DNA of 64,000 nt from Prochlorococcus sp. AG-402-M23 (GTDB lineage Bacteria; Cyanobacteriota; Cyanobacteriia; PCC-6307; Cyanobiaceae): contig QCIR01000007.1 of assembly GCA_003216575.1 (NCBI GenBank), positions 1-64,000 of the forward strand, given 5' to 3'. The translations under genes were made by a program, and so were the position numbers. The notes beneath the pieces are model-generated. The model searched no databases. It was not told the DNA's origin and saw only the letters and a program-made list of their open reading frames with translations. Of the stretch, positions 56,285-64,000 are shown one piece after another; position 1 is the stretch's first letter, and each line of letters starts with the position of its first letter.

Positions 56285-56914
56285 ATGAATTTAATTGCTA
56301 GTTATAAAAATAAAGGTTTTGAATCTGTTGCAGATGGCGTGATGTCATTTTTCGATCGTCGTACAGACTTGCATCGCAATGGAATCTCCTTTAGTAATGG
56401 GGCAAATAATGATTCAGATCCTGCAAAAATTTCTACAGATATCAGCCTTGTAGCAATAGATCGAACTGATCCAGAATCATTTGCTTTGTCTGAAGTAATA
56501 ATAAGAGGAGTCAATGCTGGTCTTCAAAGATACCTTGAAGAACGCCCACTTTTTAGCGAATGCGCTCCTGAACAATCTCTCTTTGTTAATCCCATTTTCA
56601 ATCTACAACGTTATGCTCCTGGGGAGGGGTTTAAGAAATGGCACTGTGATTGGACTATTAGCGAAGAAGCGACCGAACCAGTTCACAGAGTCTTAGCTTG
56701 GATTCTGTATTGCAATGATGTCGATTCAGGAGGAACAGAATTTCACTGGCAGGAATATCATGAGACAGCGGAACGAGGGAAACTAATTATTTTTCCCGCT
56801 GGTCTTACACATATTCATAGAGGTCGAGTTAATAAGACTCATCCAAAAACGATCGCGACCGGATGGATCAATGCCGGTTCAAGAGATTCATATATTTCTA
56901 GACTAGCTCGATAG
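56285..56914 (+). CDS. 2-oxoglutarate/Fe(II)-dependent oxygenase (prolyl-4-hydroxylase-like)
   Basis: HCDW (HxD), distal HIHRG histidine, GGTEFHWQ, P4H-like layout. Confidence 0.75.
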   Translation: MNLIASYKNKGFESVADGVMSFFDRRTDLHRNGISFSNGANNDSDPAKISTDISLVAIDRTDPESFALSEVIIRGVNAGLQRYLEERPLFSECAPEQSLFVNPIFNLQRYAPGEGFKKWHCDWTISEEATEPVHRVLAWILYCNDVDSGGTEFHWQEYHETAERGKLIIFPAGLTHIHRGRVNKTHPKTIATGWINAGSRDSYISRLAR

Positions 56915-57129
56915 TTAATTACTAATTTCATTCATTTAATAAGACCTCTCATTAGGAATATTCAATTTGATTGTCACTAATTCTTTAATGAATCACGAGT
57001 TCAGATCTAGATTGATAATAATTTTTGAAGAAGCTTCAACAGATTGGGAATGTATTGTGTATTATCAAACGACGTTCAGCTCAATTTGAGTCGCAGTTAG
57101 ATTCAAGCCATGGAACGGGGACTTGAACA

Positions 57130-57285
57130 ATGAAATTCACTTCAATGGCTGAGCTAACTTACAGAGGACTCAAGTACACACAAACCAAATCCGCCAAGGG
57201 GTCACATGAAGTGCACTTGCAATATTGTGGTCATGAAATCATGAGTAAGAGAATCCATGAAGCAATGAAAGCCGAGATGGGTTAA
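57130..57285 (+). CDS. DUF4278-like small protein (51 aa)
   Basis: Manual translation MKFTSMAELTYRGLKYTQTKSAKGSHEVHLQYCGHEIMSKRIHEAMKAEMG*; LTYRGLKY motif. Confidence 0.6.
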   Translation: MKFTSMAELTYRGLKYTQTKSAKGSHEVHLQYCGHEIMSKRIHEAMKAEMG

Positions 57286-57416: not shown

Positions 57417-57659
57417 TTGCTGTATTTATATATTCTTTTCAATTTCAACATGCAATATGAGCCAGGGACAATTGATTGTCATGTATTTTTAGAATGCAAA
57501 GAACAAATAGAAAAAATGCTACTTAGATTATACAAAGTAGACAATACTGAGCATATTTGTAACCAACTTCAAGCTATCTATCAACAAATAGAAGGTATGC
57601 ACGAATTGAAAAAAGTTAAACGAAAAAAAATTCTGTCAAGTCAAGAATTAATTAAATAA
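57417..57659 (+). CDS. Hypothetical protein (start may be MQYEPGTIDC)
   Basis: 80-aa ORF in an AT-rich region. Confidence 0.45.
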   Translation: MLYLYILFNFNMQYEPGTIDCHVFLECKEQIEKMLLRLYKVDNTEHICNQLQAIYQQIEGMHELKKVKRKKILSSQELIK

Positions 57660-57752
57660 ATTTATAACTTCAAATCATTATTGATAGATTTTTCATTTTG
57701 TATAAATTAAGTCTTAACTTATTTAACTAAATTAACTATAACTGTTATATCA

Positions 57753-57815
57753 GAAAACCCGTTCCAAAGTTTTCTGTCGGGAGGTCAGCACTACTGGGAA
57801 GGGTTTTGACCTCCC
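57753..57815 (+). ncRNA. Candidate structured RNA (pseudoknot/alternative hairpins)
   Basis: Interleaved complementary arms AAAACCCgTTCC/GGAAGGGTTTT and GGGAGGTCA/TGACCTCCC in a locally GC-rich, ORF-free segment. Confidence 0.5.
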
Positions 57816-57857
57816 TCCCCAATCTCGAATCATAAGTATATTTAAACCAATAATTTT

Positions 57858-58064
57858 CTAATTAAATCCTAGTTTTAGAGTGCCCCAAAGATCAAATGCA
57901 CCAAATAAAAAAGCTATAAAAACCAAGTCCCATGCTTTCTGCTTAATTGCCCAGGGAGCAAAAAAGACCTCACCGATCCCATGAAGAGCTGCCCCAACAC
58001 CTAGATGATCTAAAACCAAAAGGCCATGGGATAATAAAAATAACCCGCTAGCAAAGTATCTCAA
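57858..58064 (-). CDS. Small membrane protein (68 aa)
   Basis: Hydrophobic ORF MRYFASGLFLLSHGLLVLDHLGVGAALHGIGEVFFAPW...; no family recognised. Confidence 0.55.
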   Translation of the reverse strand: MRYFASGLFLLSHGLLVLDHLGVGAALHGIGEVFFAPWAIKQKAWDLVFIAFLFGAFDLWGTLKLGFN

Positions 58065-59414: not shown

Positions 59415-60122
59415 TTAAACACTAAGGAATTTCTCTACTACAGCCTTACTTAATTCACTAGTTGGTCCATTTGCCACGATACCTCCGCGTTGCATTGCAT
59501 AATAACGATCTGCTTGTCTCACAAAATGCAGATGTTGCTCTACCAATAAAACTCCAACACCAGTCTCACTAATGATCCTTTTAACTGCTGACTCAATATC
59601 TTGAACGATATTCGGTTGTATTCCTTCGGTTGGCTCATCAAGTAATAGCAACTTTGGTTTTCCAAGTAATGCTCGCGCAATTGCAAGTTGTTGCTGTTGC
59701 CCTCCGCTTAAGTCCCCTCCTTTACGAGCTAGAAATTGTTTTAAGACAGGAAAAAGCTCGTATACCAAATTATCAATCTTTTTATGCTTTGCTAAACCTC
59801 CAGGTAACGCTTCCAATCCAAGTTGAAGATTTTCCTCGACAGTTAAATAAGGTATTATTTCTCGTCCTTGAGGAACATAAGCAATTCCAGAACGAGCCCT
59901 TTGATGAGGTGGCTTTCTATTTACCAAATCTCCATTAAAAACAATTTCTCCACGCCGTGGATTTAACAACCCAATTAAAGATTTAAGCAAAGTTGTTTTA
60001 CCTACTCCATTTCGACCTATAAGACAAATCATCTCACCTTGATTGATATTCATATCAACATCTCGAAGGATATGACTTTCGCCATAGTAAGTATTCAAGC
60101 CTTTTATCTGAAGCATAGTCAT
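59415..60122 (-). CDS. urtE: Urea ABC transporter ATP-binding protein
   Basis: LivF-like ABC (IGRNGVGKTTLLKSLIGLL, DLSGGQQQQLAIARALLG) in urt order. Confidence 0.92.
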   Translation of the reverse strand: MTMLQIKGLNTYYGESHILRDVDMNINQGEMICLIGRNGVGKTTLLKSLIGLLNPRRGEIVFNGDLVNRKPPHQRARSGIAYVPQGREIIPYLTVEENLQLGLEALPGGLAKHKKIDNLVYELFPVLKQFLARKGGDLSGGQQQQLAIARALLGKPKLLLLDEPTEGIQPNIVQDIESAVKRIISETGVGVLLVEQHLHFVRQADRYYAMQRGGIVANGPTSELSKAVVEKFLSV

Positions 60123-60877
60123 TGTTCTTCCTCATCAGTTTTTCCAAGATAAACCTCTATCACTAAAGGATCTTTTTGTATGTCACTCATGGAACCCTCT
60201 TTCAATACATGACCTTGGTGTAAAACACTAACAGGGCAATCAAGTCTACGAATAAATTCCATATCATGATCAATGACTAAAACTGTATGATCACCCGCTA
60301 AAGATTTAAGAAGATCAGCAGTTAAATCTGTTTCTTCATCAGTCAAACCAGCAACAGGTTCATCAACAAGTAAAAGATCAGGGTCTTGTCCCACTAGCAT
60401 CGCAATCTCAAGCCATTGTTTTTGACCATGAGAAAGCGCTCCGGCCCTTATATTGGCTTTTGATTGAAGGTTGACAATACTCATCAAATGTTGAATTTGA
60501 TCTAAATGCTTAACCTTTAAACTATTAATTAATAATGAGAAAGGAGTTTTAGGTCTACTCACTGCTAGAGCTAGGTTTTCTTGCACAGATAAATTCTCAA
60601 ATATCCTAGGACTTTGAAATTTTCTTCCAATCCCTTTACGCGCTATACGAAACTCTTTTTGGCCAACCAACGATTTTTCTTTAAAAATCACGTCACCCTT
60701 TGTAGGTGCTACTTTCCCTGTAATGACATCTAAGAATGTAGTTTTACCTGCACCGTTGGGACCAATAACTGCTCTAAGATCACCCTGATTCAAAACCAGA
60801 TTAAGATCTCTGAGAGCAAGGAATCCTTCAAAACTAACTGAAATTTGTTTTAGCTCTAGCAATGGAGAAGTCATCAT
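60119..60877 (-). CDS. urtD: Urea ABC transporter ATP-binding protein
   Basis: LivG-like ABC (IGPNGAGKTTFLDVITGK, LSHGQKQWLEIAMLV). Confidence 0.92.
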   Translation of the reverse strand: MMTSPLLELKQISVSFEGFLALRDLNLVLNQGDLRAVIGPNGAGKTTFLDVITGKVAPTKGDVIFKEKSLVGQKEFRIARKGIGRKFQSPRIFENLSVQENLALAVSRPKTPFSLLINSLKVKHLDQIQHLMSIVNLQSKANIRAGALSHGQKQWLEIAMLVGQDPDLLLVDEPVAGLTDEETDLTADLLKSLAGDHTVLVIDHDMEFIRRLDCPVSVLHQGHVLKEGSMSDIQKDPLVIEVYLGKTDEEEQ

Positions 60878-62001
60878 TTCACCTCACCTTGTTCATTGAC
60901 TTCAAGACTTGGATATGTTTCTAATTTTTTATTAATCCCAAGTAGAAACAATAATTTCTTTGGACCGTCTTTCCTAATCCATCCTAGTACCCCCTCTGGA
61001 AGAGCTGTTACAACAAGAATAAATAATCCACCTTGAATAAACATCCAGCTTGCTGGTAATGCTTCACTTACCAAACTTTTTGCATAATTAATTAAAACAG
61101 CTCCAAGTATTGCGCCTAGCAAAGTTCCTCTACCACCCACGGCAACCCAAACAACCATTTCTATAGAGAAAGGGACAGTCATAAACTGTGGAGAAACTAT
61201 TCCAGATTGAACTGTATACAAAGCCCCTGAAATACCAGCTAATCCTCCTGCTATTGAAAATATTATTGTTTTAAAAATTACTGGATTATAACCAGTGAAA
61301 CGAACTCGAGCTTCATCATCTCTAATTCCAATAAGGATATTTCCAAATCTATCTCGAACAATCCACCGGGCAAAAAACCAAGCAAGTATTACTAAAACAG
61401 CTGATATCCAAAAGAACCATCTTTGCATTATTTCTGAACCTACCATTTGTCCAAAAAGTTGAGTCACATCTGTTTTCAAACCATTTGTTCCATTAATCAA
61501 TTTCTGCTGTCCATTAAAGAAATTGAAAAAAACCAAAAGAGCCGCTTGTGTAAGGATTGAAAAATAAACACCTTTTATTCTATTTCTAAACACTAAATAC
61601 CCAAGAAGACCAGCAATAATAGCCGGTATCAGCCAAATGGAAATAAGAGTAAAAATTGAACTTTTAAAAGGTTCCCAGAAAAATGGAAGCTTTTCGACTC
61701 CATATAAACCAAAAAACTCAGGGATACCATTTGGGAATTCTCCTGCACTATTCAATTGGAGGAACATCGCAGCACAATATCCACCAAGTGCAAAGAAAAT
61801 TCCTTGACCTAAACTCAACATTCCTGTGAATCCCCAAATCAAATCCACTCCTAATGCCACTATTGCAAGCGATAAATATCTTCCTAATAGATTTAATCTA
61901 AAAACAGGAAGCACTGAGGGTGCAGCAATAATTAGGGCAATAAGTAATACCCAAATAGTTAAATTAATCCAACTTTTTTTTGTAGAAAAAATACTCATCA
62001 A
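60874..62001 (-). CDS. urtC: Urea ABC transporter permease
   Basis: LivM-like permease (WGFTGMLSLGQGIFFALGGYCAAMFL). Confidence 0.92.
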   Translation of the reverse strand: MMSIFSTKKSWINLTIWVLLIALIIAAPSVLPVFRLNLLGRYLSLAIVALGVDLIWGFTGMLSLGQGIFFALGGYCAAMFLQLNSAGEFPNGIPEFFGLYGVEKLPFFWEPFKSSIFTLISIWLIPAIIAGLLGYLVFRNRIKGVYFSILTQAALLVFFNFFNGQQKLINGTNGLKTDVTQLFGQMVGSEIMQRWFFWISAVLVILAWFFARWIVRDRFGNILIGIRDDEARVRFTGYNPVIFKTIIFSIAGGLAGISGALYTVQSGIVSPQFMTVPFSIEMVVWVAVGGRGTLLGAILGAVLINYAKSLVSEALPASWMFIQGGLFILVVTALPEGVLGWIRKDGPKKLLFLLGINKKLETYPSLEVNEQGEVK

Positions 62002-63159
62002 TCAAGACTCCACCATTCTTCCTTTTTGTGGGAACATCCCAGTTGGTTTAAATTGAAGGAATATGACTATCAGAGCAAATATCATTACTCTAGCCATGCT
62101 TGTTGTCGCAAAAAAATCTATTGTTGAATAAAGAGGGGAAGGCATATCTGGCCAAATAGTAAGTAGTCTTCCTGCTCCTATCAAATCAGTCATTATTCCA
62201 ATAGAGAAAGAAGCAAGGATTGTTCCTAATAAATTGCCCACTCCACCAAGAACAACAACCATAAAACATCCCACAATGTAATTTCCACCAACATTTGGTC
62301 CGACTGAGCCAAGGAGTGAAACTGCAACTCCTGCAACACCAGCGAGACCAGAACCTATTCCAAAAGTAATAATATCTACTGTTTCAGTGGATATACCTAA
62401 ACAATCACTCATTGGTCTATTTTGAGTTACTGCTCTAATTCTCATTCCCCAAGCTGTTTTATCAAGAAAGAAAATTACTACTAAAACAGATATTAAGGTA
62501 ATGAGGATTATTAAAAGACGCGTTTTAGGAAAAGTAATTCCAACAAAATCAATTCCACCTCTCATCCAAGAGGGAGCTGTAACATCAACATTCCTTGCAC
62601 TAGCGCGACTAAGTTTACTTACTAAAGACGATAAAACACCTCCTGTTGCTACACCTAACAAAGCTGAGAACCCCCAAGTACATGCTCTTATTAATTTACC
62701 TTTTGCACCATGAAGTAAGTCATCAGAAATAAATAGCGGTGTAAATAGGCCAAAGAAAAGTGCTATTACCAAACCACTGGCATAGGCTAGCGGAACACTT
62801 CTAACAAATTGTTGAAGGATTAGGCTCACTCCCCATGTGGCTAAAAGTGTTTCAAGAGGACTTCCATAGAGACGTCTAATAACCGTTCGTTCTAAAAGAA
62901 TTCCAACTGTTCCACTAACTAAAAAAGCAATACCAATTGCAACTATGACATACGAATCATAAAAAGGTTTTAAGAAAGAAACTTGTTTGAAAATTAATTG
63001 GGTTATGTATGTTGAATAAGCACCAAGCATCATCAATTCCCCATGAGCAAGATTGATGACACCCATTAAACCGAAGACAATTGCTAGTCCCAGTGCTGCG
63101 ACGAGCAAAACTGAGCCAATAGCAACGCCATTAAAAAGGCTTTCAAGAATAAGTTGCAC
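62002..63159 (-). CDS. urtB: Urea ABC transporter permease
   Basis: LivH-like permease (GLMGVINLAHGELMMLGAYSTY). Confidence 0.92.
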   Translation of the reverse strand: MQLILESLFNGVAIGSVLLVAALGLAIVFGLMGVINLAHGELMMLGAYSTYITQLIFKQVSFLKPFYDSYVIVAIGIAFLVSGTVGILLERTVIRRLYGSPLETLLATWGVSLILQQFVRSVPLAYASGLVIALFFGLFTPLFISDDLLHGAKGKLIRACTWGFSALLGVATGGVLSSLVSKLSRASARNVDVTAPSWMRGGIDFVGITFPKTRLLIILITLISVLVVIFFLDKTAWGMRIRAVTQNRPMSDCLGISTETVDIITFGIGSGLAGVAGVAVSLLGSVGPNVGGNYIVGCFMVVVLGGVGNLLGTILASFSIGIMTDLIGAGRLLTIWPDMPSPLYSTIDFFATTSMARVMIFALIVIFLQFKPTGMFPQKGRMVES

Positions 63160-63183
63160 TAGCTTGGTTGATTTTTTTAAAGA

Positions 63184-63209
63184 AATAAGGAGCCCGAAGG
63201 CTCCTTATT
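63184..63209. terminator. Hairpin in the urtA-urtB intergenic region
   Basis: AATAAGGAGCC-CGAA-GGCTCCTTATT, perfect 11-bp stem with tetraloop. Confidence 0.7.
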
Positions 63210-63237
63210 AGAATCTATTTATAAGTCAAAAATTGAA

Positions 63238-64000
63238 TCACATCCTATATTTTTCACCTTTCTTAGGATCAGTCCAATCACAAGCGTAGCCTTTTGAACT
63301 TGGATGTTTTTGGTTCCATGCTTGTGGTTCAACTACTCCAGTTTCTTCAAGGATAGTAAATCCACCCTCTGCGTTGATTTCACCGATTCTCACTGTTTGA
63401 GATAGGTGATGATTTGCCATAACTTCTACTGGCCCTTGGGGAGCATCGAATGTCTGACCAACCAATGCTTCTCTAACAGCATTGTCATCAAATGTTCCTG
63501 CATCTTCAACTGCCTGCTTCCAAAGATAAACCATGTTATAAGCAGATTCTTGAGGATCAGCTACAACACGATCACTACCCCATCTCTTCTTAAAACTCTT
63601 AGCAAATTTCTTAGAAGCTGGAGTATCAATAGACATCATGTAGTTCCAAGCACCATAGTGGCCTTCAAGGAACTCAGGTCCAATCGTACTAATCTCTTCT
63701 TCCGCAATGGAGTAGTTCATTACGTAATAACCATTGGAAGGAGTGATTCCTGCGTCCTGGATTTGTTTAAAGAAAGCAACGTTTTGATCACCGTTCAAAG
63801 TGTTAACGATGATTCCACCATCAGGAAGAGCAACTTTAATCTTGGAGATAATAGGAGCTACCTCTGTATTACCTAAAGGTAGATAGTCTTCTCCAACAAC
63901 TTTACCGCCAAGTTGTTTAACTTGAGCTTTAGTAATTGTGTTAGAAGTTCTTGGGAAAACATAATCAGAACCAACTAAGAAGAAATCTCCTCCAGCCGCT
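63238..64000 (-). CDS. urtA: Urea ABC transporter substrate-binding protein (5' end beyond window)
   Basis: Frame stays open past the 63798 track start (GGIIVNTLNGDQNVAFFKQIQDAG); C-terminal CDWTDPKKGEKYRM. Confidence 0.92.
   Translation of the reverse strand, partial: AAGGDFFLVGSDYVFPRTSNTITKAQVKQLGGKVVGEDYLPLGNTEVAPIISKIKVALPDGGIIVNTLNGDQNVAFFKQIQDAGITPSNGYYVMNYSIAEEEISTIGPEFLEGHYGAWNYMMSIDTPASKKFAKSFKKRWGSDRVVADPQESAYNMVYLWKQAVEDAGTFDDNAVREALVGQTFDAPQGPVEVMANHHLSQTVRIGEINAEGGFTILEETGVVEPQAWNQKHPSSKGYACDWTDPKKGEKYRM

Follow-up and report, generated by a model that had tools for sequence, protein, structure and literature searches.

A small-RNA gene conserved in Prochlorococcus whose hairpin loop may act on glutamine-II riboswitches

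In this study, we describe a small-RNA gene whose conservation in Prochlorococcus is well supported by sequence comparison, and which is presumably expressed. We propose, with about even confidence, that its product is a trans-acting small RNA (sRNA) directed at glutamine-II (Gln-II) riboswitches, and that it serves as a nitrogen-stress brake on the mRNAs of DUF4278 genes. The gene lies on the + strand of the window, i.e. the whole 64,000-nucleotide stretch of Prochlorococcus sp. AG-402-M23 DNA that was analyzed (contig QCIR01000007.1). Its features, and those of its proposed target nearby, are collected in Table 1.

Table 1. Positions in the window of the predicted sRNA, its promoter region and the neighbouring riboswitch. 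LLI, low-light-I group.
Feature	Position	Strand	Basis
Glutamine-II riboswitch (RF01704), proposed target	57070..57127	+	65.7 bits
UGGAACGGG, pseudoknot strand of the riboswitch aptamer, proposed pairing site	57111..57119	+	Residues as in PMC6698751
46-aa DUF4278-like protein under the riboswitch	57145..57285	+	PF14105 match, E 0.0011, below cut-off
Conserved promoter box GTATAAATTAAGTC	57700..57713	+	20-nt block 98% identical in LLI
-10 element TATAAC	57737..57742	+	Kept in the LLI alignment
Predicted small RNA (two hairpins)	57748..57817	+	Covariance-model match 57748-57817
Hairpin 1, stem CAGAAAAC/GTTTTCTG	57751..57776	+	Fold; stem rebuilt with other bases in relatives
Proposed seed CCCGUUCCA, perfect complement of UGGAACGGG at 57111-57119	57758..57766	+	Complementarity
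Hairpin-1 10-nt loop CCGUUCCAAA (CCGTTCCAAA), invariant family core	57759..57768	+	Alignments
Hairpin 2, stem GGGAGGUCA/UGACCUCCC	57779..57815	+	Fold
GGGAAGGG in the hairpin-2 loop, able to kiss the hairpin-1 loop; LLI only	57796..57803	+	

The element is flanked by an 80-aa ORF on the + strand (57417-57659) and a convergent 68-aa ORF on the - strand (57858-58064). It has no coding capacity, and no ORF follows it on its own strand. The + strand was predicted to fold into two hairpins, with a free energy of -27.9 kcal/mol. Over 91 nt, the z-score of this fold was -2.2 relative to dinucleotide shuffles, 6 of 200 being equally stable; for the 70-nt element and mononucleotide shuffles it was -4.8. 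A first-pass annotation of this DNA had proposed a pseudoknotted or switching RNA made of four interleaved arms. All four are found where it placed them (AAAACCCgTTCC at 57754-57765, GGGAGGTCA at 57779-57787, GGAAGGGTTTT at 57797-57807 and TGACCTCCC at 57807-57815), and the second and fourth form the stem of hairpin 2, around a loop containing GGGAAGGG. The first and third, in the form given there, run into the stem of hairpin 1. Their longer AAAACCC/GGGTTTT pairing is not maintained: relatives have TATT, TGTT, CATT or TCTT, and GGAAGGG alone is kept. We infer a 5' end at about 57747-57749. The 3' end probably lies where conservation stops, a position that is uncertain, as the window has no U-run after hairpin 2: a test for an intrinsic terminator there found hairpin 2 followed by TCCCCAATCTCG.

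The element is single-copy in its own genome. A search of 36 other genomes of the same genus recovered it from 30, at 90-98% identity, and it is also present in the sister genus g51. The genus of the window (g1) is taken here as the low-light-I (LLI) group, and g41 as the high-light (HL) group. Nearly all the LLI Prochlorococcus genomes searched carry the element, among them G032, which we take to be NATL2A (positions 1537150-1537219). Most HL genomes carry a relative at another locus, in which the 5' hairpin is kept letter for letter and the 3' half is different. The relative in G207, presumably MED4, is at about 689151-689225, next to other neighbour genes and downstream of an apparent pstB; copies thus sit in differing gene contexts. 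The pattern CAGAN{1,4}CCGTTCCAAN{1,5}TTCTG was found in 96 of 115 HL genomes, and a reversed-pattern control in none. Several HL genomes contain a second paralogue (type B), with the stem CAGAAU/AUUCUG. Several others, of 97-99% completeness, gave no pattern match, and a few more pattern-negative HL genomes had diverged copies. Two diverged copies 6.5 kb apart were observed in one HL genome (L352 and L361, at G375:C1:184412 and 190954), one of them with the loop UGUUCCAA. At another locus (L187, about 1485-1600; G392:C1:380238), the loop CCCGUUCCAAA is carried by an unrelated stem, GAGUUAA/UUCUUGACUC, followed by AGGUUUUACC; this is possibly a third paralogue or a decayed copy.

No other genus was found to have the element, with a covariance model applied to 251 genomes of the family or with the pattern applied to 151, besides one weak match in a genome of another picocyanobacterial genus (L092, G105). 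This covariance-model match was set aside, its loop being different (CCCUCUCGAAAAG). At positions 1501-1600 of L092, an unrelated-looking hairpin ACAGAAAACCCUCUCGAAAAGUUUUCUG is seen, followed by AAACCCUUUUUC...AAAAAAGGGUUUUCUG. In a pattern scan of named genomes, the true copies belonged to Prochlorococcus records and to a few filed as uncultured Synechococcaceae. A viral or phage origin was also considered and discarded: matches of a degenerate pattern in viral contigs were in unrelated contexts, the rest of the element being absent, and BLAST matches in phage were only partial. We propose from these surveys that the element is restricted to two lineages of Prochlorococcus, LLI and HL.

Conservation is sharply bounded, by the promoter box on one side and by the end of hairpin 2 on the other, and covers the box and the RNA only. 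Mean identity among LLI copies is 0.98 in a 20-nt block situated at -60 to -41 relative to the loop, stays at 0.95-1.00 throughout the element, and falls to 0.75 just past hairpin 2. The HL profile matches that of LLI, on a quite different sequence. Together with the genome count and identities given above, this footprint rules out chance. Covariation within LLI is uninformative, because there is almost no variation there. In relatives, stems are rebuilt with other bases: the hairpin-1 loop is closed by a C-G pair in LLI and HL type A and by U-A in type B, and one lineage has AACC/GGUU instead. Two versions of the 3' stem are seen in HL, AGGUCU/AGACCU and AGGUUU/AAACCU; the 92 elements include one U-G combination but no C-A. 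The MED4 relative (L042, 3152-3230) is a type A element with two copies of AGGUCU (AGGUCUCGAGGUCUU), each able to pair with AGACCU. The 5' copy is the likely partner, being supported by covariation with type B; the other may be conserved without pairing, or may serve AGACCU as an alternative partner.

Hairpins of this kind might also belong to a bidirectional terminator or a 3'-UTR element between convergent ORFs, with no function in trans. The convergent arrangement, which is found in LLI and in MED4, and a stable GC-rich hairpin, followed by a U-rich tract in the HL relatives, would agree with this. However, the window has no U-run on either strand, and an invariant hairpin-1 loop, an upstream box with its -10 element, and differing gene contexts are unexpected for a terminator, so that we consider this explanation very unlikely. 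The - strand also folds (z -1.8), and the function could reside there, as an RNA or as a protein-binding site, the features of the + strand being incidental. We give this almost no credence: the box, the -10 element, the 3' boundary and the HL U-rich tract are all oriented for the + strand.

The promoter region of the sRNA suggests how it may be controlled. In HL genomes, a GTAN8TAC (NtcA-type) box is present in 33 of 36 distinct type-A upstream regions, starting -50 to -52 from the CAG in hairpin 1; such a box turns up, anywhere in 120 nt, in 3% of shuffled upstreams, a comparison that yields no probability since the HL upstreams are related to one another. Counted from an assumed HL transcription start at the A of ATGCAG, the box has its centre at -41.5, which is the position reported for the NtcA box of the sRNA NsiR4 (PMC6316151). 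The HL box would then be placed as in an activated promoter. In LLI, window included, GTAT(C/A)AATTAAGTC is found at the same place, and the full GTAN8TAC in 0 of 30 copies; the box GTATAAATTAAGTC thus occupies the position of the HL box and has lost its right half-site. Nitrogen control in LLI is for this reason unproven.

The riboswitch of the window is 0.6 kb upstream of the sRNA, a linkage seen in LLI only. The DUF4278-like protein beneath it probably starts at the ATG at 57145 and not at 57130, as the upstream ATG is CTG in a related locus (L477). Just upstream of the riboswitch, positions 56285-56914 (+) encode a 2OG-Fe(II) oxygenase-like protein (PF13640, E 2.7e-8). Adjoining the sRNA locus, positions 59415-63798 (-) hold an apparent urtABCDE-like urea ABC transporter cluster, with two ATPases, two permeases and part of the binding protein, as judged by reading only. 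Gln-II riboswitches have been reported from marine picocyanobacteria only, in several copies, upstream of DUF4278 genes, whose products resemble the N-terminus of the glutamine synthetase (GS) inactivating factor IF17; they boost expression in nitrogen excess (PMC6316151). We counted 4-8 of them per genome in ten Prochlorococcus genomes.

The link between the two RNAs came from a search for complements of the loop in the 5' regions of NATL2A (1.6 Mb) and MED4 (0.4 Mb), which led to a MED4 DUF4278 gene with a Gln-II leader. Most of the riboswitches inspected contain GGAACGGG, the perfect complement of CCCGUUCC(A) in the sRNA. The predicted duplex has 8-9 bp and an energy of -16.2 to -17.4 kcal/mol; when the riboswitch pairs with its own 5' strand, the value is -6.8. 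A variant riboswitch with GGACGGGG pairs more weakly (-12.2). When NATL2A targets were ranked with the energy needed to open the mRNA taken into account, three of the six riboswitches came ahead of all 1755 ordinary 5' regions, and two more were within the best few. Shuffled loops paired as well with the riboswitch set in 3 of 3000 cases. In NATL2A intergenic DNA, GGAACGGG is the most frequent of 168 8-mers of the same composition, in a count that includes the sRNA's own antisense. Across elements, 98 of 98 distinct sequences retain 7-8 of the 8 pairs, wobbles included, a figure limited by the search pattern, which fixes the loop core. The conservation of GGAACGGG itself cannot show selection for pairing with the sRNA, since this strand is conserved by riboswitch function, and homologous riboswitches count as one target. 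The predictions indicate a conserved single-stranded seed with targets above chance, the Gln-II riboswitches coming first.

The same seed could nevertheless serve other targets, photosynthesis or nitrogen genes for instance, the match to Gln-II being a coincidence. The AAA of the invariant loop stays unpaired with the riboswitch, strong sites also exist in ordinary 5' regions, and three HL genomes have TTGGAACGG within the psbB coding sequence, as MED4 has within an HLIP-like ORF. Yet longer anti-loop sites (CTTTGGAACGGG, TTGGAACGG) are no commoner than those of a reversed-pattern control, and among 374 NATL2A/MED4 orthologue pairs no ordinary gene emerged as a convincing conserved strong target. 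The scarcity of shuffled loops matching the riboswitch set also speaks against coincidence, and we regard this explanation as possible but rather unlikely. Coding sites in psbB, HLIP-like and petE-like genes of HL were rejected as targets, as they are not conserved in LLI.

The first-pass annotation had a different role for the loop of hairpin 1, namely kissing that of hairpin 2. The topology it described does exist in LLI. The kissing helix consists there of GGAA/UUCC plus GG/CC around a bulged G and is kept in 21 of 21 distinct sequences, GGAAGGG and CCC(G)UUCC being invariant as well as complementary. The predicted duplex reaches -9.2 kcal/mol, but 3-7% of shuffled loops do equally well. 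The covariation that was to support the loop-loop helix was not found in LLI, and the sole compensatory change there (in L029) fits a competing inner helix, nested and built on the same G's. In HL type A, the kissing partner is worth -2.6 kcal/mol or worse: HL relatives lack the partner strand but have an identical hairpin-1 loop. Since the loop is invariant where its partner is missing, an intramolecular pseudoknot is not its main role, and self-kissing is at most an LLI elaboration. A cis-acting pseudoknotted or switching RNA, in which the fold with its two kissing loops would itself be the function, is accordingly improbable in our opinion. A pairing of GGGAAGGG with the CCTCCC tail was also tried and dropped, as the tail is not conserved. 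Of the original proposal, what holds is a functional structured sRNA, on account of its conservation, promoter architecture, rebuilt stems and lack of coding capacity; the pseudoknot as its conserved core does not.

How might a trans-acting sRNA work on Gln-II riboswitches? Crystallography of the Gln-II aptamer showed a pseudoknot helix in which C1-C5, at the 5' end, pair with G36-G40, together with a G41:C19 pair, and glutamine binds within this helix (PMC6698751). The authors of that structure propose that glutamine stabilizes this helix, by which the ribosome-binding site is freed (PMC6698751). The GAACGG at positions 36-41 of the aptamer is the exact core of the complement of the sRNA loop. 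Hairpin 1 would thus display CCGUUCCAAA, whose CCCGUUCC(A) would pair with GGAACGGG in the riboswitch hairpin loop, the strand whose pairing with the riboswitch 5' CGUUC makes the glutamine-binding pseudoknot. The sRNA loop holds this CGUUC as well, and the sRNA would in effect reproduce this pseudoknot strand of the riboswitch at greater length. By binding the mRNA while it is free of glutamine, the sRNA would keep the pseudoknot from forming, and glutamine requires this pseudoknot to turn translation on. In HL, the NtcA-type promoter would raise the sRNA in nitrogen stress, and the mRNAs of the DUF4278 genes, which are GS-inactivating-factor-like, would stay off. In LLI, the sRNA's own GGGAAGGG loop may keep the seed hidden until a better partner takes its place; the hairpin-2 loop UGGGAAGGG there resembles the riboswitch loop UGGAACGGG. 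In spite of these likenesses, the sRNA is not itself such a riboswitch: RF01704 gave no match at 57660-57880 at E up to 10, and the element has no downstream ORF on its strand. That the sRNA antagonizes the whole riboswitch class, the NtcA signal (in HL) and glutamine being read at the same few nucleotides in each Gln-II mRNA of Prochlorococcus, is a suggestion to which we attach somewhat less than even confidence.

The Rfam/Infernal search recommended with the first-pass annotation, Yfr families included, returned nothing above cut-off at 57660-57880, the best being Yfr17 with 11.6 bits against 50, and the HL loci had no Rfam match. Like the sRNA described here, the Yfr RNAs of Prochlorococcus are short intergenic stem-loop RNAs (PMC2518516, PMC7368042). 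By coordinates, the MED4 relative matches no entry among Yfr8-21 (PMC2518516). The loop is absent from the Yfr loci of MED4 that were sampled, and Yfr13, which folds differently, is unrelated. Yfr28 is at ftsQ/ftsZ, elsewhere than the MED4 relative (PMC7368042). The same source lists Yfr106-108 as validated in NATL2A; the sRNA, which NATL2A carries, could be one of these and may already bear a name.

Two known systems are close in some respects. NsiR4, from Synechocystis and other beta-cyanobacteria, is a small RNA with an NtcA box centred at -41.5 (PMC6316151), as the box of the HL form here would be with a start at the A of ATGCAG, and it represses gifA and pirA in Synechocystis (PMC9196836). 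Repression of small inhibitor proteins of nitrogen metabolism in nitrogen limitation, which we propose here, would be a further likeness. However, NsiR4 is described as pairing around the ribosome-binding site and not with a riboswitch aptamer, whereas the proposed seed here is a hairpin loop, and Prochlorococcus is reported to lack the NsiR4 targets gifA and pirA. As NsiR4 is reported absent from alpha-cyanobacteria (PMC6316151), the sRNA is not the same RNA; by analogy, it would be a functional counterpart of NsiR4 and not a homologue. In E. coli, the btuB mRNA is under both a riboswitch and a trans-acting sRNA, OmrA, but the OmrA site is in the coding sequence, and pairing there does not depend on the aptamer (PMC11162775). 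The site proposed here is instead the ligand-binding strand of a whole riboswitch class. Our literature search did not find the sequence of this sRNA, nor any Prochlorococcus sRNA linked to a glutamine riboswitch, nor any sRNA mimicking the pseudoknot partner of a riboswitch class. To our knowledge, no sRNA has been described that is aimed at the ligand-binding strand of a riboswitch class by such mimicry.

Prochlorococcus is reported to be without NsiR4 and without full-length GS inactivating factors, and its GS regulation was called unclear in a review (PMC6316151). If our proposal is true, an RNA linking NtcA to the multi-copy glutamine riboswitches would fill this gap in GS regulation by RNA alone.
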